From: Bacteroidota bacterium
GTDB lineage: Bacteria; Bacteroidota; Bacteroidia; B-17B0; Aurantibacillaceae
NCBI GenBank assembly: GCA_013287545.1
Contig: JABDDQ010000006.1
Span: forward strand, 8,056 to 58,286
Direction: 5' to 3'
Length of the DNA stretch: 50,231 nucleotides
Shown here piece after piece: positions 3,361-46,135 of the stretch; the first letter of the stretch is position 1; every line of letters starts with the position of its first letter. The translations under genes were made by a program, and so were the position numbers. The notes under the pieces were generated by a model. The model was not told where the DNA came from. It saw nothing but the letters and a program-made list of their open reading frames with translations, and made no database searches.

Positions 3361-3876
3361 TTAATGTTCTAATTTTTCGCCTTTAATAAGGTGCTTAATG
3401 TTTTCGTAAAGATATATCTCATCGCCTTCGGCATATGAATTATGCGACCAAACAATTTCTCCGTTTCCATCAACAATAAAAACGTGTGGCACCACGTTTA
3501 CATTCATGGCACGTTTAAAATCTTGATTATCATCTAAATAAACTTCATAAGGCCACTCTTTTGTTTTTACATCGGTTACCACTTTGGCGCTTGTACGAGC
3601 ATCATCAATAGATACAGCAATAATTTTTACACCTGTTTCTTTTTGCCAATCAGCATAATCATCTAAAATGTTATCTAACTCTTTTTTACAAGGCTTACAC
3701 CATGTAGCCCAAAAACTAATAATGATAGGTTTACCATTATTAGTAAATGTAGAAGTACTTACTTTAGACCCATCCAGATTTTTAATTACCACCGTTGGGA
3801 GTTTACCCCCTCCATCAAAAGTAAAGCCCATTGAACAGATAACTACAATTGCTATTGCAATAATTATTTTTTTCAT
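3361..3876 (-). CDS. TlpA-like thiol-disulfide oxidoreductase
   Basis: This 171-residue protein has an N-terminal signal or anchor (residues 1-19) and a thioredoxin fold of the TlpA/ResA type. Its active site is FWATWCKPCKKE (Cys60, Cys63), with the cis-proline region VNVVPHVFIVDGNGEIV near residue 130. Such proteins face the periplasm and reduce or rearrange disulfides in exported proteins. The gene heads a unit with the DUF6029 barrel and an Omp28 lipoprotein that itself carries CxxC, so the downstream products are plausible clients. The gap to the preceding gene contains a strong terminator (3893-3925) but no recognisable TAnnTTTG element, so its promoter is unidentified. The 12-base palindrome AATAAGCTTATT (3877-3888) lies directly before the start codon. 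Confidence 0.92.
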   Translation of the reverse strand: MKKIIIAIAIVVICSMGFTFDGGGKLPTVVIKNLDGSKVSTSTFTNNGKPIIISFWATWCKPCKKELDNILDDYADWQKETGVKIIAVSIDDARTSAKVVTDVKTKEWPYEVYLDDNQDFKRAMNVNVVPHVFIVDGNGEIVWSHNSYAEGDEIYLYENIKHLIKGEKLEH

Positions 3877-3931: not shown

Positions 3932-5968
3932 TTATTTAATAACGCTAACCTTGGTTTGATATGAACCACTGGTTGAGGAAACCAGCACAGTATATATACC
4001 GTTAGCCAATTGATCTACAGGAATGTTTACTAAATTATCTCCTACATTAAAATCATAGTTTTTAGTAAGAACAACTTGCCCCATTATATTATATAAGGAA
4101 ATATTTGTTTTTTCGGAAGAGCTAAGATTTACATTAACATTAAACTGGTTATTTGCCGGATTAGGATAAACTTTAACATTACTAATATTACCCTGATTTT
4201 GTTTAATGACTACCGTAGTAGAAATGTTTATATTATCAACATACAAATCATTACCATTGTTATTTATAGCTGAGAATTTAATTAACGCCTCGGTTGATGA
4301 AGCATAAGCACTTAAACTAATATAGCTGGTTTTCCATTCGGTGCTTGCAGGAGTATATTCGTTAGAATCTCCTGGCGTTAAAGCGGTTGTTAAACCTTGA
4401 CCACCTTTATAGAAAAGTTGATGCCAAGTAGCTCCGCAATCCGTAGAAATTGAAACAGCTAATGAGTCATCTATCTCGCCATAATTAGAATCATAATAGT
4501 AATTATACGCATAATCAAAACGTAATTGAGGACTTGTTACAGAAGTAAGGTCAATTGTTTGCATATACATATCATCTACATCAGGATAAGTTGCGTACGA
4601 GTAAAATGGGTATAATGCAGAGTTAGTTGATGTTCCGTATCCGCCATAAGTCCCACTTCTTTTCCATTGACTAGGACCTCCTGCAGCATTAGATAACACC
4701 CAATTTGCAGGCGGAAATGTAGTGGTTGTAAATCCTTGTACAATAGGTGCTGGCGTAGCTGTAGGCTCTATAATAACGTTAATGGTTTGAGAATTGTTAT
4801 TCAAATTTTGATCTGTACCACTATTTGGAGAGTTTACTGATATATATACAGCATGACTGCCGGATGTGGTTACTGTAGGAGTTAAACTAACTGTTGCTGT
4901 TTGGTTAGTAGTTAAGTTACCTGTCCAGCTATAGGTTTGAACAGTACCGGCGTCTATTTTATAATTAATAGTACAAGATGTTAAAGTAGTTGCTCCTGCA
5001 TTTTTAACAATAGCAACAGGGGTTAGTGTTGTAGTACATTGTATTGTTGCATTACCTACAAGTGCAGCTGCATCTAAATTAAGAGGAACAGGTGAACTAT
5101 ATGCGGCCTGATGAATTCGGCGTGCATAGGCTGTATCATAAGGAGCACCTATCCCACTCGAAGAAACACTTACTGTATCACAAAAATAAGGCGCGTCATT
5201 TTGAATCCAGCCAGCAAAAGCAATTTGACTCTTATCAAAGATATAACTTGGTATAGCTATTTTAAAAGTAAGATTTTGTATCTGTCCGTTTGTCCATGTA
5301 TTGTTAAGCACTGTTCCTTGTAACGAAGGAACCATTTTACGCATTACATCGTAAAAAACTTTTTCGCCATTAGACCCAGGTGCTGTTGTATAAGTTATTA
5401 CAGCTTCCTCTAATGCCATGTAAAACTTTAAAGCATAACCTGCAGTTTGATTATATACTTGGGCAGCCGTTATTTTTGCATTTATAGTAATAGAATCTGC
5501 TGTTGGGTTTATTGTGTGTGTTATGCTAAGCGCAAAAGGCGAGTTTACAATAGCGCTATCATTAATCATGGTTTGTGAAAGCTCATAAGGTGCGCCCGGA
5601 TAAGCATTCCCTAATGCATCAGGCAATTCTATACCGTTAAAGCGCGTATAAGGTGCCTCTGGAATACCATAAGGAGAAAAATAATAATACATTTCCTTAT
5701 TAATTTCGGCGCTATCTTGTATATACTGAGAATTACTGCCTAAACCGGTAGCATCAGGAATAGGTACCGGATAAGAAACTTTTACAATTTTATTTGGATA
5801 ATTGCCAGGAGCATGTACTATGGGATAAAGATACTGGTTTGCCGGAGGGCAATTGGGGCAAGTCTCCCCAGTCCATTCTTCATATAAAATGGTTCGTTGT
5901 GTTTGAGCTATTGTAGTTGCGCTTAAGCATAATGCGATAGCTAATGATGTTAATGTAGTTTTTTTCAT
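3932..5968 (-). CDS. Omp28-related surface protein with T9SS sorting domain
   Basis: From the ATG at 5968 the product has 678 residues, beginning with a typical signal peptide (MKKTTLTSLAIALCLSATTIAQ). The longer frame back to 6022 is rejected because the promoter (5992-6023) lies inside it. An Omp28-type thioredoxin-like segment follows directly, EEWTGETCPNCPPANQY (Cys37, Cys40). Next come a beta-rich middle with a CARDB-like stretch (AIVKNAGATTLTSC) and a jelly-roll or MAM-like region (WVLSNAAGGPSQWKRSG to SAINNNGNDLYVDNI). The last 80 residues are a type A sorting domain (VYPNPANNQFNVNV, NIMGQVV, LANGIYTVLV). The protein is therefore predicted to cross the outer membrane through T9SS and be anchored at the surface. 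It is transcribed alone, between its own promoter and terminator, beside a second Omp28 gene set. Confidence 0.9.
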   Translation of the reverse strand: MKKTTLTSLAIALCLSATTIAQTQRTILYEEWTGETCPNCPPANQYLYPIVHAPGNYPNKIVKVSYPVPIPDATGLGSNSQYIQDSAEINKEMYYYFSPYGIPEAPYTRFNGIELPDALGNAYPGAPYELSQTMINDSAIVNSPFALSITHTINPTADSITINAKITAAQVYNQTAGYALKFYMALEEAVITYTTAPGSNGEKVFYDVMRKMVPSLQGTVLNNTWTNGQIQNLTFKIAIPSYIFDKSQIAFAGWIQNDAPYFCDTVSVSSSGIGAPYDTAYARRIHQAAYSSPVPLNLDAAALVGNATIQCTTTLTPVAIVKNAGATTLTSCTINYKIDAGTVQTYSWTGNLTTNQTATVSLTPTVTTSGSHAVYISVNSPNSGTDQNLNNNSQTINVIIEPTATPAPIVQGFTTTTFPPANWVLSNAAGGPSQWKRSGTYGGYGTSTNSALYPFYSYATYPDVDDMYMQTIDLTSVTSPQLRFDYAYNYYYDSNYGEIDDSLAVSISTDCGATWHQLFYKGGQGLTTALTPGDSNEYTPASTEWKTSYISLSAYASSTEALIKFSAINNNGNDLYVDNINISTTVVIKQNQGNISNVKVYPNPANNQFNVNVNLSSSEKTNISLYNIMGQVVLTKNYDFNVGDNLVNIPVDQLANGIYTVLVSSTSGSYQTKVSVIK

Positions 5969-36459: not shown

Positions 36460-37185
36460 TTAATTTTCTCTTTTAAGTAATACTATTGCTTTTGGTCCAC
36501 AATTAAATAGCGCATCTAATACAGAAAGATTTGACAAAAACTCCTGCCCATTAACTTGTGGATAAGTTACTGGGTTATAATCCGAGTATAGTAATTCTAC
36601 CTTATTCTCTTTATATAAACTTTCATCATTATATTGTTTCGCCCCACTACCCGATAAATAAGAGTTTGCACCAAAATGCAAACAAATATTAAGATTGCGG
36701 TTATTTTTCACTCCAAAATTACCTTTATCAAATTGAGAAGCTACTTCTATTTTTGTATTTATTTCTAAATGTTTAAGTACCCATTTTATGATAGTAATAT
36801 TTAATTCCGCGAGGTTAGAAAATTGGGTTTTAAGAATAGTCTCAAATTCAGGGAAATATTGATTAAAATAAGGGGATTTTATATAAGCATCTTTTATTTG
36901 ATTAAGATGTTTAATATTCCATTTTGAGCTATAATCTAATTCAATTTCGTTATAATTTTGAAAGGCTCCTTCCGATTTCTTTACAGAAACACTTAGCAGA
37001 ACTTTGCTCCCATTCTTACCCTTGATAAAATTTCTTGCCGCCGCACTCTCTTTAGGAAATTGAACATTATCTAATAGCACAAAAATATCTGACTTATATA
37101 TTTTATAGAAGAATCCTAACCAGGGTATAAAATTGGGTTGATGTATAGCAACAATTTTTTTGTTATCAAGTTGTCCATTAATCAT
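36460..37185 (-). CDS. WbqC family protein (second copy)
   Basis: The 241-residue protein shows the family start KIVAIHQPNFIPWLGFFYKI and VFVLLDNVQFPKESAAARNF, with SVSVKKSEGAF, then SYLSGSGAKQYNDE and VELLYSDYNPVTYPQV near the end. It is clearly related to the protein at 29753-30445 in order of motifs but diverged in detail (H-Q-P-N-F versus L-Q-S-N-Y), so the two probably have different substrates. Its neighbours are a GT4 gene three bases upstream and a methyltransferase gene 11 bases downstream. Biochemical role unknown to me; occurrence beside glycosyltransferases and methyltransferases suggests sugar modification or ligation. Confidence 0.88.
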   Translation of the reverse strand: MINGQLDNKKIVAIHQPNFIPWLGFFYKIYKSDIFVLLDNVQFPKESAAARNFIKGKNGSKVLLSVSVKKSEGAFQNYNEIELDYSSKWNIKHLNQIKDAYIKSPYFNQYFPEFETILKTQFSNLAELNITIIKWVLKHLEINTKIEVASQFDKGNFGVKNNRNLNICLHFGANSYLSGSGAKQYNDESLYKENKVELLYSDYNPVTYPQVNGQEFLSNLSVLDALFNCGPKAIVLLKREN

Positions 37186-37188
37186 TAC

Positions 37189-38364
37189 TTAATTTTTACT
37201 AACTACTTCTTTAAAAAATGATTCTATCTCGTCAGAGAAATTTTTCACGTTATGATGTTTAGTTGCTAAATCAATGCTATTCGCACTCATTATCTTAAAC
37301 TCGGCTTCACTTAATAAAATAGCATTTCTTATAGCAAGTGCTACATTTTTATAATCATCTCCTTCGTACAAAAAACCATTTTTAGCTTCTTTTACAAACA
37401 AATTTGTTTGTCCAATATTTTTTGCAATAATTACATTGCCACAAGCCATGGCTTCGAGCATTGAAAGAGATGTAAAATTTTCAATAGGTTGTGTTGAAAT
37501 AAATATTTTAGAAACACCAAAAATATTTTGCATGGATGAGCTAAAACTTAACGTAAAGTATTTATTCAAATCATATTTATTAATAAGCACTTCCATTTCT
37601 TTGCTTAACTCTCCCTTACCATAAACAAGAAATTTATAATTACTTATATCTTCAATAAAATTTTCTTTTAAATATTTAACTGCTTCTACCATAAGTAATG
37701 GGTTCTTTTCTACACATAATCTTGATGCATAAACAACATGATTCTGTTTATTTGGCAAAGGCACAAATTTGCGCAAATCAGTAAAACAATATTCCGAACT
37801 TTTAACTACGCATTTTTCTGTATCAATCAAATTAGATTTTTTCAACTCATCTGCAACTACTTTATACCAAGTATAAACTCCGGTTGGTTTTATATTTTCT
37901 AATAAAATCTTAATAGAATTCATATATCTGGTCATTAAAGTACCTGATTTATTGTATTCTTTTAGGTCATCAATCAATTCTGCAACTTCGTTATTAATAG
38001 ATAGTTTCACTTGAATTAGTTGATGTATTTTTTTAAATTTAAAAATTAAATTAAAATTATGATGCGTATACGTATTAACTATATGAAGTAAATTAATTCT
38101 ATTAATAAACAATTGAAATATAAAATTCAATAAATTAAGAATAGTAAATTGATAGGTTTTTAAAACAATAACATTTACATCATTTTTTATAATATCCGCA
38201 TTTTTTAAATTTTGCAACGAATCTTTATCAGTTATGAGATATAATTTATTTTTAGAATGGTTTGAAGGTGAATTAAAATATTCATAAAAATTACAGAACT
38301 GGCGCTCAGCACCACCACTACCACTAAGGTCCGGTACAGCGACTAAAAAAAGAGCGACATTCAT
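37189..38364 (-). CDS. Glycosyltransferase family 4
   Basis: The 391-residue protein begins MNVALFLVAVPDLSGSGGAE, including the G-G-A-E-R motif typical of the acceptor-binding loop of GT4 enzymes. The C-terminal half has HVVYASRLCVEKNPLLMVE, FLVYGKGELSKEMEVLINKY, LSFSSSMQNIFGVSKIFIST, and the donor-binding segment NFTSLSMLEAMACGNVIIAK, with the E-x7-E glutamates partly altered. It is a cytoplasmic transferase that likely adds a sugar to the growing chain. It is followed by WbqC after three bases and preceded by the NodB-like gene with a six-base gap. Donor and linkage cannot be told. Confidence 0.92.
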   Translation of the reverse strand: MNVALFLVAVPDLSGSGGAERQFCNFYEYFNSPSNHSKNKLYLITDKDSLQNLKNADIIKNDVNVIVLKTYQFTILNLLNFIFQLFINRINLLHIVNTYTHHNFNLIFKFKKIHQLIQVKLSINNEVAELIDDLKEYNKSGTLMTRYMNSIKILLENIKPTGVYTWYKVVADELKKSNLIDTEKCVVKSSEYCFTDLRKFVPLPNKQNHVVYASRLCVEKNPLLMVEAVKYLKENFIEDISNYKFLVYGKGELSKEMEVLINKYDLNKYFTLSFSSSMQNIFGVSKIFISTQPIENFTSLSMLEAMACGNVIIAKNIGQTNLFVKEAKNGFLYEGDDYKNVALAIRNAILLSEAEFKIMSANSIDLATKHHNVKNFSDEIESFFKEVVSKN

Positions 38365-38370
38365 CTTATT

Positions 38371-39120
38371 TTATTCGATTTTAACAAGCATTTTCCGCGC
38401 TTGCCCATAAGCTCGCTCGGTAGAACAAACTTGTTTTTCTTCTCTCTTAAAATTGCTGATAATAGTTTTCGACCAAATTTCTTCGGTCGATAAATCTTCA
38501 TTTGTCATCCACCACATTGGATGAATAAGTAAATGCATTTTTGTATATTTTGATTCGCCAAACATATCCCAAGGTGTGCCCTCTTTCCATACTTTATTTG
38601 AATCCGATATATAAGTTATCCCAACCAAATCCTGTTTATCATATGTATTAATGAATTTCTTGATCTTAATTTCGTTATTAATTATTTTTAAACTTGGTTG
38701 ATGGAATGAAACTACATTTATCTTTTTCTCAAACATATTTTCAAGAATAAATGCCTCTTCTTCAATTAAACTATTCAATCCTTTATTCTTTGCATAAAAC
38801 CCTTCATCATAATGAATGCCTATTTCATGCCCTAAATCAATTATTTTTTGAACAAAAGTGTGGTTTGTTCTACTAAACAAATTATAGATGGGAGACCTAA
38901 GCATTATAAAGTAAGTTGCTTTTACTCCAAGTTTAGCTTCTATAGAAGCCATTTCATAAGCAGCGTCTAAATCGGCATCTATATCATGCCTCAAAACACA
39001 AAATTTTTCAAGTGTATAAGATTTTGCTTCATTAAAACTAATAAAGTTATATCTGGCATTAATTGCCGTTTCTAATAAATTTGTGTACCCTTTGTATGTA
39101 AATTCTTTAATCGTTTGCAT
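38371..39120 (-). CDS. NodB-like polysaccharide deacetylase family protein (second)
   Basis: The 249-residue protein carries FCVLRHDIDADLDAAYEMA (Asp46 and Asp48), VKATYFIMLRSP, and LGHEIGIHYDEGFY (His98, His103). It also has NVVSFHQPS and a late MHLLIHPMWW with the candidate catalytic His. These are the carbohydrate-esterase family 4 motifs in their R-H-D-x-D form, which is common among cytoplasmic sugar-modifying members lacking signal peptides. The enzyme may remove an N-acetyl or N-formyl group from an amino sugar. It overlaps the SDR gene upstream by 14 bases. It is not closely related to the other NodB-like protein at 14507, whose motif is TFDYE. Confidence 0.85.
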   Translation of the reverse strand: MQTIKEFTYKGYTNLLETAINARYNFISFNEAKSYTLEKFCVLRHDIDADLDAAYEMASIEAKLGVKATYFIMLRSPIYNLFSRTNHTFVQKIIDLGHEIGIHYDEGFYAKNKGLNSLIEEEAFILENMFEKKINVVSFHQPSLKIINNEIKIKKFINTYDKQDLVGITYISDSNKVWKEGTPWDMFGESKYTKMHLLIHPMWWMTNEDLSTEEIWSKTIISNFKREEKQVCSTERAYGQARKMLVKIE

Positions 39121-39991
39121 GTATAATCTCCATTATTCCGTCTTCAAATTTAATAGCGGGTTCTATCAATAAATCTTTCATACGATTTATATTACTAAAT
39201 AAGTTTTTAGGTTTAACATTTTCGTCGCATGCAAATACAGGAGTTTTATCAATTTTGTTTCCAATAATGGTGCAAATCTCTTTTAGGCTCATTAATTGAT
39301 TACCTCCAATGTTTATTTTATGATTTTCCTTTAATTCTAAACATTTTTCTATCCCCATCACAGCATCCTTTACATGAATTGGATTTATCATAATACCCTC
39401 AGTACCCTGTAATTGAATGGGAGCACCATTTTTAATGCTTTCAACTAAACGAGGGATTAGCATAGATTTTTTTTGCCTTTTACCGTATACAAAAAATAAT
39501 CTGGAAATAATAATATTGAAAAATTGAGAATAGTTTTCTACTAAAACTTCAGAACACAGTTTTGTGCTTAAATAAAAACCTAATTCTCCATGAGGTGCAA
39601 CATGATCTTCCTCATCAAATCCTTTTTCACTGGTTCCATATATACCGCCCGATGAAGCGTAAATAAAATTAGAGCCGCCTGCGTTTCTACAATACTCAAG
39701 TAATTTTAATGTGCTGCTAACATTTACATCGAAAATATTTTGTGCTTTATTTGGAAAATCCCTAAAAAATTCTGATTGCGCTAAATGTGCAACAACATCT
39801 ACTTTTTCTGGAAGCAATTTTTCAAAATCCTTTTGGGTAAAATCAGCATATATATGATGAAAATTAGGGTTTTCTATTAACGGTTTAGTTCTTGAAATTC
39901 CATATACATTAAAATTACCATTTTCAGATAACATCTTTGACAACTCAAACCCAATAAGCCCATTGCAACCAGAAATTACTATTGTTTTCAT
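39107..39991 (-). CDS. NAD-dependent epimerase/dehydratase (extended SDR)
   Basis: The 294-residue protein has the Rossmann motif IVISGCNGLIGFELSKML, DVVAHLAQSEFFRDF, the active-site Ser strand FIYASSGGIYGTSEKG and the catalytic YLSTKLCSEVLVENY (Tyr-x-x-x-Lys). A later RLFFVYGKRQKKSMLIPRLV and GTEGIMINPIHVKDAVMGI supply the usual substrate-domain features. It most likely acts on a nucleotide sugar as an epimerase, reductase or dehydratase. It abuts the downstream end of the GT4-like gene (one base) and overlaps the NodB-like gene by 14 bases. Substrate unknown. Confidence 0.9.
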   Translation of the reverse strand: MKTIVISGCNGLIGFELSKMLSENGNFNVYGISRTKPLIENPNFHHIYADFTQKDFEKLLPEKVDVVAHLAQSEFFRDFPNKAQNIFDVNVSSTLKLLEYCRNAGGSNFIYASSGGIYGTSEKGFDEEDHVAPHGELGFYLSTKLCSEVLVENYSQFFNIIISRLFFVYGKRQKKSMLIPRLVESIKNGAPIQLQGTEGIMINPIHVKDAVMGIEKCLELKENHKINIGGNQLMSLKEICTIIGNKIDKTPVFACDENVKPKNLFSNINRMKDLLIEPAIKFEDGIMEIIHAND

Positions 39992-41299
39992 CTAATTAAT
40001 GTTACTATAATACTGAAGTGGGATTTTATTTTCAAATAAAGGGTGCTCAATTTTAGGCATTGAGTTATTATATGATTCAGGATTTAATGGGTGATACAAA
40101 TTCATTAAATCAACTTTTTTATTATACCATATTTTATCATATATTTTTTCAAACATGTATACAGCAGATTTAGGTGAATGATATTTTGCAACATACTTAG
40201 TACCTGCCACTCCAAGTTCTCTTCTTAAATCTGGATTTTTAACCAAAAGTCTAAGTTCATTTACAATACTTTCAGGCGTTGAAGATAATATCGGGCACTC
40301 ATTTAAGTATGAGTATCTGCGATAAGGCCTTACATAACTTTCATTTTCCAAATTAGATATTACAGGCAGACCTAAAGCCATACCTTCAATGCCACTTAAA
40401 GCATACCCTATAATTAACTGCTCTACCAATATATCAGTTTTTTTTGATAAAACTATCTTTACCTCCTCATTCATCATTTTCTCCAATAACAATAGTTCCA
40501 CCTTTAATCCTTCTTTTTTCAATCTATCTACTGCATCAATAACAAATTCTGTTCCTTTGAGTGCCCTATGGTTAGGGCTATGCGCTATATAAACAGTTTC
40601 ATTTATTCCATCTGCATCCGAATAGGTTGTTTTTGGAATCCATTGTTCTATATCAATACAAAGGCAGGAGAATGGCACAACTCCCCAATTAGGTTTACAT
40701 TCTGGTACAACTGTCAAAACCAACATTTCAGAATACTTTGTCCAATAATCAACTTCAGATTTAATTTGAGCTTCATTTAAACCTGCTTCCGGATAATGGG
40801 TCCAAAGCCCAAATAGATACGAATATATAGTAATACGCGAATACTGAATATAATCGTATCCATAAGGAATCATAATTACTTTTTTCTCGAATTTTTTCAA
40901 CCAATAACCTTCATTAAAATACAAATTAGGGGATGATGTATAAAGACCTCTAAATGACAAATGAAAAATATCGTAATTTTTTATTGCGTAATCAAAAAAA
41001 AGATAGTTAACAAGTTCTTTCCTTAAAAATGCAGGGAATGCTTTATAATTTTTTTCAACTACTTCATTTATATACAAATCAAAATCTTCTCTTTTATGTA
41101 TCCTCCAAAAGCCAACCATTACGGTATCACTTTTATAACCTGCCTGTTTTAAAGCATTACTCCAATATTTATTATTTATTAAAGGAACAGTACCAAAAAA
41201 TAAACGAGGTTTTAAAGAGGTTTTTAATTTATACCTATTTTTCCTATGCAGGAAATTTAGATAAAATGTAAATATTATGCGATATAATTTTATTTTCAT
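39992..41299 (-). CDS. Glycosyltransferase, GT4-like
   Basis: The 435-residue protein has a GT-B-like build. The N-terminal part (RLFFGTVPLINNKYWSNAL, YDIFHLSFRG) is diverged. The C-terminal domain has VYIAHSPNHRALKGTEFVID, DILVEQLIIGYALSGIEGM and ALGLPVISNLENESYVRP, followed by the terminal-helix segment NPDLRRELGVAGTKYVAKYH typical of GT4 proteins. It probably works in chain assembly. Its ATG at 41299 is directly preceded by a TAA (41302-41300) in the frame of the upstream ATP-grasp gene. That TAA seems to be the ancestral stop of that gene before an 84-base insertion moved its present stop to 41354, so the two genes were once coupled more tightly than now. Confidence 0.82.
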   Translation of the reverse strand: MKIKLYRIIFTFYLNFLHRKNRYKLKTSLKPRLFFGTVPLINNKYWSNALKQAGYKSDTVMVGFWRIHKREDFDLYINEVVEKNYKAFPAFLRKELVNYLFFDYAIKNYDIFHLSFRGLYTSSPNLYFNEGYWLKKFEKKVIMIPYGYDYIQYSRITIYSYLFGLWTHYPEAGLNEAQIKSEVDYWTKYSEMLVLTVVPECKPNWGVVPFSCLCIDIEQWIPKTTYSDADGINETVYIAHSPNHRALKGTEFVIDAVDRLKKEGLKVELLLLEKMMNEEVKIVLSKKTDILVEQLIIGYALSGIEGMALGLPVISNLENESYVRPYRRYSYLNECPILSSTPESIVNELRLLVKNPDLRRELGVAGTKYVAKYHSPKSAVYMFEKIYDKIWYNKKVDLMNLYHPLNPESYNNSMPKIEHPLFENKIPLQYYSNIN

Positions 41300-41320
41300 T
41301 TATTCCACTATTATTTTAAC

Positions 41321-41423
41321 TTTTTCCTGCAACTCATTATCCACGCCTATTTTTCAAAAATTTAAATTGGCAGATGTAATTAATGGATTGTTTAATTGGG
41401 ATAATTTTTCCTGCAACTCATTA
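41321..41423. repeat. 19-base direct repeats bounding an 84-base insertion
   Basis: TTTTTCCTGCAACTCATTA occurs at 41321-41339 and again at 41405-41423, offset by exactly 84 bases. The segment between the copies is the inverted copy of an internal part of the same gene. Collapsing one repeat plus the intervening DNA restores a plausible gene end. Confidence 0.95.
41337..41408. repeat. Inverted repeat arm A (72 bases, perfect)
   Basis: These 72 bases are the exact reverse complement of 42161-42232. With one extra T at 41409 the identity continues seven more bases (CCTGCAA, 41410-41416, against TTGCAGG, 42154-42160). The arm contains the present stop codon and last 16 codons of the ATP-grasp gene. 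Confidence 0.97.
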
Positions 41424-42574
41424 ATTAATTTATCTACTGTAACTTTATCTTTTGCCTTAACTAAAAAATATACTGGACGTTCCATGTCATTTTTAAAATT
41501 GGCATTTAACTTAGTTCCAACAGGCAACAATATTTCACTAACAACAACATTTGGATGTTTTTTTATTTCATCCATACCTCTAACTTCTTTTAAAATACCA
41601 GTTGGCGTTTCCAAAAAAAACCAACCTAACTGAAATGTTTCACCATTCTTTTTTAATAAAGGAGGTTCTCCCGTTAAAACTCTTACATATTCTAATGGAT
41701 AATCATAACCAGTAGAAAGAAACCCAATTGGAAAAAAATTAAGCCCTCCGCCAGGCCTACCACCCACTTCAAGCAAATAAATTCTTTTAGTTGTTATAAT
41801 AATTTCAAAATGAACACAGCCCGTTTCAATGCCTAATGCTACACACGCATCTTGAATAAGGGCATCGATTTTACCCTTTTGTTCATTTCCTATAGGCCCA
41901 GGAAAATATAACTGTTGTACCACCGTTGCACTAAATGAATAATTTTTTTTATCTGAGATTGATATAATATGGCTTTTGCCTTTATAAAGAATGGCTTCTA
42001 CCGTATGTTCTGTCCCAGAAATAAATTCCTCAACAATTACATCATCGTGCAAGTAAAATTGTTGGCTATTTAGAACATGTTCTGTAATTTCATTTTTACT
42101 ATTTACTTTAAAAACCCCACGAGATGCGCCACCAGCAAATGAAGGTTTTACAATTGCAGGAAAATTATCCCAATTAAACAATCCATTAATTACATCTGCC
42201 AATTTAAATTTTTGAAAAATAGGCGTGGATAAATTCGCTTTTAACCAACTTTCTTTCATTGCCCTTTTACTTGTCACATTTAAAGCTGCTTCTTCGCTTA
42301 ATCCAGGAAGTTTTCTTTCAATTGATAGTTTTGATGCCGTTTCAATTCCAAAGTCATTTATTGGCATAACAGCACATAATTCGTGATTTTTCACAGCATC
42401 AATAACTTCTTTAGGTTTCATAATATCAGCTACAATAACTAAATCAGCTATTTCATAAGCTTTTTCACACGGTTTCCTATCAATTATAATGACTTTATAA
42501 CCATGCATCTTCAGTCTTTCTACCGAAGGCATTGCCATTGTATTACCACCTAAAAAAGCAACGTATTTATTCAT
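41354..42574 (-). CDS. ATP-grasp ligase with 3' end replaced by an inverted internal copy
   Basis: The 406-residue protein has an N-terminal nucleotide-binding domain (VAFLGGNTMAMPSVERLK, VMPINDFGIETASKL), the ATP-grasp lysine strand FPAIVKPSFAGGASRGVFKV, DDVIVEEFISGTEHTVEAI and the magnesium-site strand RIYLLEVGGRPGGGLNFF. The enzyme should ligate a carboxylate to an amine with ATP; the substrate is unknown. Its last 16 residues (LSQLNNPLITSANLNF) and stop come from an 84-base insertion. Without it the frame would end NELQEKVKIIVE and stop at 41300-41302, right before the next ATG, giving 396 residues. The catalytic core is intact, so the enzyme may still work. It lies 17 bases after a methyltransferase gene. 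Confidence 0.88.
   Translation of the reverse strand: MNKYVAFLGGNTMAMPSVERLKMHGYKVIIIDRKPCEKAYEIADLVIVADIMKPKEVIDAVKNHELCAVMPINDFGIETASKLSIERKLPGLSEEAALNVTSKRAMKESWLKANLSTPIFQKFKLADVINGLFNWDNFPAIVKPSFAGGASRGVFKVNSKNEITEHVLNSQQFYLHDDVIVEEFISGTEHTVEAILYKGKSHIISISDKKNYSFSATVVQQLYFPGPIGNEQKGKIDALIQDACVALGIETGCVHFEIIITTKRIYLLEVGGRPGGGLNFFPIGFLSTGYDYPLEYVRVLTGEPPLLKKNGETFQLGWFFLETPTGILKEVRGMDEIKKHPNVVVSEILLPVGTKLNANFKNDMERPVYFLVKAKDKVTVDKLINELQEKLSQLNNPLITSANLNF
42161..42232. repeat. Inverted repeat arm B (72 bases, original locus)
   Basis: This arm lies inside the ATP-grasp gene and encodes the segment STPIFQKFKLADVINGLF and following residues, which continue into the conserved lysine strand. It makes sense in the protein family, so it is taken as the source, and arm A as the inserted copy. 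Confidence 0.95.
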
Positions 42575-42591
42575 ATAAAATCAATAAATTT

Positions 42592-43230
42592 TCACTTCTT
42601 ATTTGCCCATCCTGTAAAATCAGGATATAAATACATTAAAAATTCATACATAGGATAATCATGCCTTAACATTACTCGTTTTGTTATTTTTTTACAAATT
42701 GTGAATATTTTTTCAGGCTCGTAATAAAAAGCATAATCAATCTTAAAATCTACATAAGAGGACATAAAATCTATAGCAACTCCTTTGTTGCTCATTTCAT
42801 AACTAGTTCTTAAAATTTTTTCGGTAAAATCGTAATTATTTTGATGTTGTAATTTAAGGTTAAAACAACTTGTTGATAAAATAAAATCAAATCTATCTAG
42901 TAATTTATCTTCTGTTATATCACACACTAAAAAATCAACTCCAGGAAGCCTTTTTTTTGCTTCATTAATTAAAATAGGATTTATGTCAATTCCTTTATAC
43001 CTAAAATTACCTTTACCCAGTTTTTTTTCTAGAAAAAAATAAAAATCTCCAAAACCGCATCCAAGATCTAAAATATAGTCATTGGCTTTTATTCCTATAT
43101 CAAATAAATTTTGAAACCTTTCTTGCCTTCTCTCTTCTTTTCCAGAAGCTAAAGCATCAATACTAACTCCATGCTTCTTCAATCGTTCGTTATATCTATT
43201 ATTAATATTATCTATATCTTCTTGATTCAT
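42592..43230 (-). CDS. Class I SAM-dependent methyltransferase
   Basis: The 212-residue protein has YILDLGCGFGDFYFFLEKKL (SAM motif I, about residues 52-71), FRYKGIDINPILINEAKKR and VDFLVCDITEDKLLDRFDF. A C-terminal segment contains YEPEKIFTICKKITKRVMLR and HDYPMYEFLMYLY. It shares length, motif spacing and the F-Y-x-F-L and G-I-D-I-N signatures with the methyltransferase at 35810-36448, so both likely derive from one family, with separate acceptors. It overlaps the DegT gene upstream by four bases (ATGA). In ABC-exported O-antigens, methylation can act as a chain-end cap; whether this enzyme does so is not visible. Confidence 0.88.
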   Translation of the reverse strand: MNQEDIDNINNRYNERLKKHGVSIDALASGKEERRQERFQNLFDIGIKANDYILDLGCGFGDFYFFLEKKLGKGNFRYKGIDINPILINEAKKRLPGVDFLVCDITEDKLLDRFDFILSTSCFNLKLQHQNNYDFTEKILRTSYEMSNKGVAIDFMSSYVDFKIDYAFYYEPEKIFTICKKITKRVMLRHDYPMYEFLMYLYPDFTGWANKK

Positions 43231-44243
43231 AAAATAGTATTTATTTTGTTAATAATTGTTTCTACTTCATTATCAGTTAAAGCGGGATAAATAGGAATGG
43301 ATAAGGTATGATTAAACGCATTTACAGAATTTGGAAAATCTTTATCATTTAAATTCAAGTAACGATGTAACATTGAATCAACACCTCTTCTCACAGCAAT
43401 ATTCTCTTTACCAAATACACCTACTACTTCATTAATATCTCTGTCTGTTATTAAAGGAAACCTATAAAAAATAGTTTTTTTAGCTATCTTATTTATTTTA
43501 GTTAAAGTAGTCTGATTTAGGTTATTTAAATACTTTTCAGCAATCAAGTTTCTTCTATTAAGAAAATTACAATATCTATTCAATTGAGAAAGCCCGAGTG
43601 AAGCTTGTACATCAGTTATCACAGGAGTGGCAGCTTTGTTAATAAAACTTTTTTTATACTTTTCAAATAGTGCCTCGTCATTTAAAACCAACATACCGCC
43701 CTCACCCGTGGTTAAGCACTTTGTGGCGTGAAACGAGAAAAAACTCATTGTACCTTTATGCCCAAATACTCTTCCATCAGGTAAGTTTCCAATTGAATGA
43801 CAACAATCTTCAACTATTGGCACACCAAGTTTATTAAATTCATCAACATCTGCCCAAATGCCATATATATGCACTATTATAATGGCTTTTGTTTTTGAAT
43901 TTATATGTTTCATCACATTTTCTGGAGTAACTACCCAATGGTCACAAATATCACATATAATTGGAATAGCGCCTACGTTTACAACAGCCTCCAATACATT
44001 ATTACAAACATATGTTGGTATAATTACCTCATCGCCACTTTTTATTCCCAATAGTTTTAAACCAATAACAAGAGCATAAGTACCACTTGAAGTTGCTATA
44101 GCATTTTGATATTGAAATTGCTTAGCAAATTCATTTTCAAATTTTTTTACATATTTACCTTTAACAAGATTTAATGAGTCAAGCACGTCATTAACTGCTT
44201 TTTTATCTTCGAAATTTATGTCTGGTTTAGAATGATTTATCAT
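43227..44243 (-). CDS. DegT/DnrJ/EryC1-family sugar aminotransferase
   Basis: This 338-residue PLP enzyme has LVKGKYVKKFENEFAKQF, ATSSGTYALVIGLK (phosphate loop), GDEVIIPTYVCNNV, IIIVHIYGIWADVDEF, VPIVEDCCHSIG and the PLP-lysine segment FFSFHATKCLTTGEGG (Lys175). Such enzymes transfer an amino group from glutamate to a keto sugar nucleotide. The product sugar cannot be predicted. It is coupled by a four-base ATGA overlap to both the AsnB-type gene upstream and the methyltransferase gene downstream, implying a shared step sequence. It is clearly distinct from the WecE-like enzyme and from the aminotransferase at 46136. Confidence 0.92.
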   Translation of the reverse strand: MINHSKPDINFEDKKAVNDVLDSLNLVKGKYVKKFENEFAKQFQYQNAIATSSGTYALVIGLKLLGIKSGDEVIIPTYVCNNVLEAVVNVGAIPIICDICDHWVVTPENVMKHINSKTKAIIIVHIYGIWADVDEFNKLGVPIVEDCCHSIGNLPDGRVFGHKGTMSFFSFHATKCLTTGEGGMLVLNDEALFEKYKKSFINKAATPVITDVQASLGLSQLNRYCNFLNRRNLIAEKYLNNLNQTTLTKINKIAKKTIFYRFPLITDRDINEVVGVFGKENIAVRRGVDSMLHRYLNLNDKDFPNSVNAFNHTLSIPIYPALTDNEVETIINKINTIL

Positions 44244-46135
44244 CCTACTAAATTTTCATTATTTAAAAACAACCTACACCACCATTCAAAATTCATAAAA
44301 GACCAAATAAGTAATCTATGATTAACTCTATGGTTTATGTGTTCGTTAACAATTTTCTCAATAAATTTTGGGTTTATAAATTCGGCAGATGTTGTTTTTT
44401 TATTTAGAAGCAATTCTTTAACATAGTCAGCATTTTCGCCTCTATACCAGCTTTCGTCCGGAGCTGAAAAACCTTGCTTTTTTCTATTTATAATAGATTC
44501 AGGTATAAAATCCAGCATGGCCTTACGTAACACATTTTTACCATCATCAAATTCTTGATATTTATTTCTTTTTGAGTTGATGTTTTCATCAATCTTTTTC
44601 ATTTGCTGCAGATTACCTAACTTGTGTTTTACAGGTATTTTTTGAGCAAAGTTAACTAATTCATTATCTAAAAACGGAAAACGCTCTTCAAGCCCATTTG
44701 CCATAGCCAGTTTATCGCCAACTAAAAGCAACCCCGGTAAAAAAGTTTTTATTTCAAAATATAAACTGTTATTAATGTGTTGCTCGGGCGTATCGTATTT
44801 TAATTTTTTATTGAAAGTAAAAACACGTTCAAAAACATCACGGGGTTGGTTTATATTTACTTGAGAATAAACCGAGTTAGTAAATAAATTTTGTTTGTCT
44901 TCATCAGAAACTAAACGTTGCCAAAAGCCATAATAATTATCAAAAAACGATTTCTGATCGAGCGATTGGAAAACTCTATAGTATCTCCACGGGTAACCTC
45001 CATATAATTCATCTCCTCCTGTGCCCTGTAAGCAAACCTTTACAAACTTAGATGCTAAACGACTAATGTAATAATTAGGATAACTCATTCCAACACGTAA
45101 ATCCTCCAAGTGCCACACTACACGAGGCAAAGACCAAGCTAAATCTCCAGCATTTATAACCTGCTCATAATGTTCGGTTTTAAAATAATTTGCCATTAAC
45201 TCGGCATCTCTTCGCTCATCGTAGTTTGCTTCAACCCCAGTAACAGATGACATATCAAAACCCGCAGTAAAAGTTGTCATTCGTTTTACATGCTGGGATG
45301 CAATAGCAGTTAATGAACCTGAATCCATTCCCCCCGATAGATAGCTACCAACCGGAACGTCAGCAACCATTTGTTTGGCAACAGCATTTTTTAATAATCT
45401 CTCCGTCTCATTTTTAGCATCTTCAAAAGTCATTGATTCATCTGTTGCAGAAAAATCATAATTCCACCACGAATTGTGTTTTAAAGTTTTTACATTACTC
45501 GAATCTACTTTTACTGTATTGGCAGGAGGTAACATAATTACTCCTTTGAACAATGTTTGAAAATCGAATAAGTTTTGGAAAGTAAAATATTCATTTAGAG
45601 CATCCATATTTAACTCAACCTTAAAATCAGGATGAGCCATAAATGCTTTAATTTCAGAGGCAAATAAAATTGTTTTGCCGTTAATCCAATAGTAAAGTGG
45701 TTTAACTCCAAATCTATCTCTGCTTAAATAAAGTGTTTTAGTAGGTTTATGCCAAGCAGCAATAGCAAACATGCCATCAAATTTTTCAAAAAATGAAACG
45801 CCGTAAGCTGCCAGTCCTTCTGATATAATTTCTGTATCAGTGGTAGAAATAAATGTATGCCCTTTTGATTTTAATTGCGATTTAAGTTCTAAATAATTAT
45901 AGATGCATCCATTAAATACCACTACCCACTCTCCATTCTTAGATTCCATAGGTTGGCTGCCCTTATCAGAAGTATCTAATATAGCAAGCCTTCTATGCCC
46001 TAGGGCAATATTTTCTTCAACATAAAAGCCTTCTCCATCTGGTCCACGATGAGCAATTTTGGTAGTCATTGCCTTTATGGTACTTAGCGAAGTCGGGCTT
46101 CCACTAATATTAAATATGCCTGCTATACCACACAT
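44240..46135 (-). CDS. asnB: AsnB-type glutamine-dependent amidotransferase
   Basis: The 631-residue protein has an N-terminal Ntn glutaminase domain starting at the nucleophile Cys2 (MCGIAGIF), with AHRGPDGEG, GHRRLAILD and FNGCIYNY. A C-terminal synthetase domain follows, with the PP-loop SYLSGGMDSGSLTAIAS (about 264-280) and GTGGDELYGGYPWRY. Glutamine ammonia is passed to an acyl-adenylate. In housekeeping form the product is asparagine. In O-antigen clusters close relatives (for example WbpS-type proteins) are thought to amidate sugar carboxyls, which fits its position between two DegT aminotransferase genes, abutting one and overlapping the other. Which carboxylate it uses is not visible. 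Confidence 0.93.
   Translation of the reverse strand: MCGIAGIFNISGSPTSLSTIKAMTTKIAHRGPDGEGFYVEENIALGHRRLAILDTSDKGSQPMESKNGEWVVVFNGCIYNYLELKSQLKSKGHTFISTTDTEIISEGLAAYGVSFFEKFDGMFAIAAWHKPTKTLYLSRDRFGVKPLYYWINGKTILFASEIKAFMAHPDFKVELNMDALNEYFTFQNLFDFQTLFKGVIMLPPANTVKVDSSNVKTLKHNSWWNYDFSATDESMTFEDAKNETERLLKNAVAKQMVADVPVGSYLSGGMDSGSLTAIASQHVKRMTTFTAGFDMSSVTGVEANYDERRDAELMANYFKTEHYEQVINAGDLAWSLPRVVWHLEDLRVGMSYPNYYISRLASKFVKVCLQGTGGDELYGGYPWRYYRVFQSLDQKSFFDNYYGFWQRLVSDEDKQNLFTNSVYSQVNINQPRDVFERVFTFNKKLKYDTPEQHINNSLYFEIKTFLPGLLLVGDKLAMANGLEERFPFLDNELVNFAQKIPVKHKLGNLQQMKKIDENINSKRNKYQEFDDGKNVLRKAMLDFIPESIINRKKQGFSAPDESWYRGENADYVKELLLNKKTTSAEFINPKFIEKIVNEHINHRVNHRLLIWSFMNFEWWCRLFLNNENLVG

Follow-up and report, generated by a model that had tools for sequence, protein, structure and literature searches.

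The ATP-grasp gene in the window (the whole stretch of DNA that was analysed, 50,231 nt) carries near its end, as deposited, an 84-base insertion with a perfect inverted copy of the interior of the same gene. This insertion is probably a chimera of whole-genome amplification (multiple displacement amplification, MDA) and is most likely absent from the chromosome of the organism. We favour an artefact because two more of the loci sampled in this assembly bear similar scars, and that we are dealing with an artefact of some kind can be said with slightly more assurance. Amplification of the sample DNA, and an event in vitro, are what we infer.

Geometry of the insertion

Features of the window (positions, strand, description):

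41321..41339, plus strand: first copy of the direct repeat, 19 nt, putative departure and return site of the switch (repeat comparison)
41337..41408, minus strand: inserted inverted copy, 72 nt, reverse complement of 42161-42232 (exact match)
41405..41423, plus strand: second copy of the direct repeat, 19 nt, including the 11-nt junction homology TTTTCCTGCAA
42161..42232, plus strand: source of the 72-nt copy, within the same ATP-grasp gene (unique in the 1.38 Mb sampled)
41354..42574, minus strand: ATP-grasp ligase-like ORF with an LAL_C2 C-terminal domain, 406 aa as deposited and 396 aa without the insertion
39992..41299, minus strand: next ORF downstream, its ATG directly after the original TAA

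The initial annotation had described an exact 72-base reverse complement and an 84-base insertion flanked by a direct repeat of 19 bases, and both were confirmed at these positions. The two arms are 100% reverse-complementary, with 752 nt between them, and form the only inverted pair of at least 30 nt in the 50-kb window; by chance, an exact inverted pair of 72 nt in 50 kb has an expectation of about 1e-30. The sequence of each arm occurs at a single place within the 1.38 Mb of the genome that was sampled. Deleting 84 bases at either copy of the direct repeat gives an identical empty site.

One junction has a homology of 3 nt (TTA), the other one of 11 nt (TTTTCCTGCAA). Together with the positions, this homology fits the proposed out-and-back template switch, with four points: departure at 41339, copying from 42232 to 42161 on the opposite strand, and return at 41321. 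A chromosomal inversion was rejected on our own reading of the junctions, the second of which has the wrong partners.

The ATP-grasp gene and its unmodified end

The ORF at 41354-42574 matched both the ATP-grasp core (PF13535, 60.7 bits) and the LAL_C2 C-terminal domain (PF18603), the latter over profile positions 2-73 of 78 and with 29.0 bits in the deposited protein, for a cut-off of 29.4. When the insertion is collapsed, the frame has 396 aa and ends ELQEKVKIIVE, its TAA abuts the ATG of the downstream ORF, and LAL_C2 is matched full-length (positions 2-78, 35.1 bits). In the deposited form, the last 6 residues of the collapsed protein are replaced by 16 C-terminal residues, LSQLNNPLITSANLNF, which derive from the inserted antisense copy.

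The closest homologue in the 395 genomes of the class that were searched (L044, 54% identity) ends APKVEFIVEF. The collapsed protein aligned with it through its last residue, and the alignment of the deposited protein stopped at residue 391. Since L044 aligns to the collapsed end and LAL_C2 is full-length without the insertion, the insertion is, as judged from these comparisons, the derived state and the 396-aa ORF ending KVKIIVE the unmodified one. The shorter ancestral end proposed in the initial annotation thus gains independent backing from the homologue (KVEFIVEF) and from the domain profile. The insertion alters the last residues only, outside the ATP-grasp core. As for the rewriting of the C-terminus that had been claimed, the antisense origin of the 16 residues holds for the deposited sequence; rewriting by evolution is unsupported, given the scars at two other loci.

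A search of genome contigs with the ATP-grasp protein returned no close relative, and a search of plasmids nothing but distant matches. The same-genus genomes held distant ATP-grasp matches only. These searches, together with that of the 395 genomes of the class, yielded no close relative that carries the locus and hence no orthologous empty site at the DNA level. The ORF lies in a co-directional cluster (36460-46135, minus strand) that resembles cell-surface sugar clusters, with a DegT-type aminotransferase, a methyltransferase, a group-1 glycosyltransferase and an asparagine-synthase-like ORF as members.

Similar scars elsewhere in the draft genome

The window is part of contig C6 of a draft genome of 2.15 Mb in 102 contigs, 56.7% complete and with 0.11% contamination. 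We scanned 1.38 Mb of this genome in stretches, about 64% of it, for perfect inverted copies. Besides the window, the scan retrieved three further perfect local inverted copies of gene interiors with short junction homology, at two loci:

Contig C4 (L028), first copy, inverted, 70 nt: 3453-3522 and 4086-4155
Contig C4 (L028), second copy, inverted, 58 nt: 4018-4075 and 4333-4390
Contig C40 (L066), inverted, 92 nt: source at 3374-3465 in a neighbouring ABC-transporter permease gene, insert at 5690-5781 within purD

The arms of these three are 257-2224 nt apart, so that all four copies fall within 0.3-2.3 kb. The 70-nt and 58-nt copies in C4 are the two contig ends facing a 10-N gap, whose flanks have a 46-nt overlap in common. 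Junction homology, read by eye, is about 13 and 8 nt in C4 and about 4 and 4 nt in C40. Several 10-N gaps are present in the draft assembly, and the remaining ones that were examined had no inverted ends. The C4 gap region (L028:3985-4193) sits just upstream of dapB.

In C40, the 92-nt copy replaces roughly 90 nt of purD, when compared to the relative G002, and leaves a truncated frame of 343 aa. This near-universal gene of purine synthesis had intact frames of 422-451 aa in all 12 relatives searched.

As controls, we used about 1.69 Mb of DNA from nine relatives (1.07 Mb), E. coli K-12 (0.25 Mb), named Bacteroidota-rich loci (0.23 Mb) and homologue loci (0.14 Mb), in which local inverted copies of gene interiors of the kind seen in the window were absent. 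If the rates were equal, three loci in 1.38 Mb versus none in 1.69 Mb would arise with a probability of about 0.09. This difference is modest, and the argument is therefore mainly anatomical: tails from the opposite strand that face an assembly gap, and the disruption of a near-universal gene. Direct repeats showed no excess in the same genome; the excess is specific to the inverted orientation.

Origin of the insertion

Among the 475 MDA chimeras sequenced by Lasken and Stockwell (2007), the inverted kind made up 85%. In 337 of 406 inversions the joined segments lay less than 10 kb from each other, and a complementarity of 2-21 nt was present at most junctions (PMC1855051). The insertion resembles these chimeras on each point: the second segment is inverted (100% reverse complement over 72 nt), the source is nearby (752 nt here, 257-2224 nt for the copies in C4 and C40), and the junction complementarity lies within the published range (3 and 11 nt at the insertion, 3-13 nt over all copies). 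However, the published junctions are single switches, whereas the copy in the window has two junctions in one contig.

During MDA, a growing 3' end may have quit its template and used a short homology to anneal to the opposite strand of the same gene nearby. There it would have copied 72 nt, before it was rejoined to the original template 19 nt behind the departure point. Either one molecule would have switched twice, or the assembler would have joined two single-switch molecules through the source segment that they share. The assembly of such chimeric molecules would be an alternative stage of origin.

The draft itself can be read in two ways. A completeness of 57% together with 0.11% contamination is frequent among single-cell genomes and counts for an MDA chimera, and a single-cell genome project found draft mis-assemblies from chimeras that needed correction (PMC2859065). 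Nevertheless, the same figures would be in keeping with an ordinary metagenome bin as well. Moreover, the copy is internal to its contig and needs two switches, unlike the assembly differences in a study of MDA reproducibility, which were mostly at contig ends (PMC3842359). The scars at the C4 gap ends and the disrupted purD in C40 lead us to favour what the initial annotation had offered as its alternative, a chimeric molecule or an assembly artefact.

A genuine and recent template switch during replication in vivo, which would have put the copy into the chromosome and left a near-normal ATP-grasp protein, seems rather unlikely to us. The geometry and the junction homology suit out-and-back switching, the ATP-grasp core is spared, and the ORF is still open. 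However, similar perfect scars at other loci (the broken purD, the contig ends at a gap), which are perfect and therefore recent, point to an event in vitro, and the distance, which at about 820 nt is long for switches of the hairpin type, also counts against it. Short-range replication template switches (PMC7954356) and quasipalindrome-associated mutations in E. coli, a precedent for switching at short inverted repeats (PMC7202029), share with the insertion the out-and-back copying of the opposite strand and, where the return point is behind the point of departure, an inverted copy together with a direct repeat. The insertion differs from them in its source (~820 nt away) and in that the similar recent scars at other loci of the draft suggest an in-vitro cause. 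It is very improbable that this bacterium has unusually active long-range (0.3-2.3 kb) template switching that recently rewrote the ATP-grasp end and disrupted purD. Least credible is an assembler or read-level artefact without MDA, in which library reads that were chimeric, or errors of the assembly graph where coverage was thin, made the join: insert and tail lengths of 58-92 nt, shorter than short reads, and the several 10-N gaps agree with it, but supporting chimeric reads would be needed at each of three loci, and MDA is the simpler explanation for both the recurrence and the inverted orientation.

If the insertion is an artefact, as in the amplification chimera that we prefer, perfect local inverted copies of gene interiors with short junction homology can mimic gene evolution in drafts, and a simple scan for inverted copies flags both such scars and falsely broken genes, for example purD. 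Neither the antisense-derived C-terminus of 16 residues nor the hairpin that the mRNA might form should be claimed as biology, and the disrupted purD of this draft should be taken with the same caution as the ATP-grasp end. If the insertion is real, it would be a well-preserved case of a strand switch over a long range in a wild bacterium.

Other inverted repeats

Several candidates for further scars were set aside by inspection as being of a different kind. The GGGAGAAAT-type repeat was found in L057 of the same genome as the window and in L152 of G002. At L057:18508-19303 and L152:12088-16892 lie inverted copies of a repeat similar to ATTTCGACC-GGGAGAAATC; present in two same-genus genomes, it is apparently a natural dispersed repeat. 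The repeated palindromes of L132 (16908-17982, contig C26), several copies of AACCTTAGACAAATTTGTCTAAGGTT with a spacing of about 300-700 nt, and the 30-nt pair of L040 were likewise regarded as natural repeats. So was a 47-nt inverted pair at L128:11845-12185 (contig C12), with ends TGGGTGGGTGG and CCAACCCACCCA and 247 nt apart, which could be a natural element. Among the controls, the last 104 nt in contig C9 of a same-genus draft (G005, L097:16973-17076) are an inverted copy, with its arms 15 kb apart.
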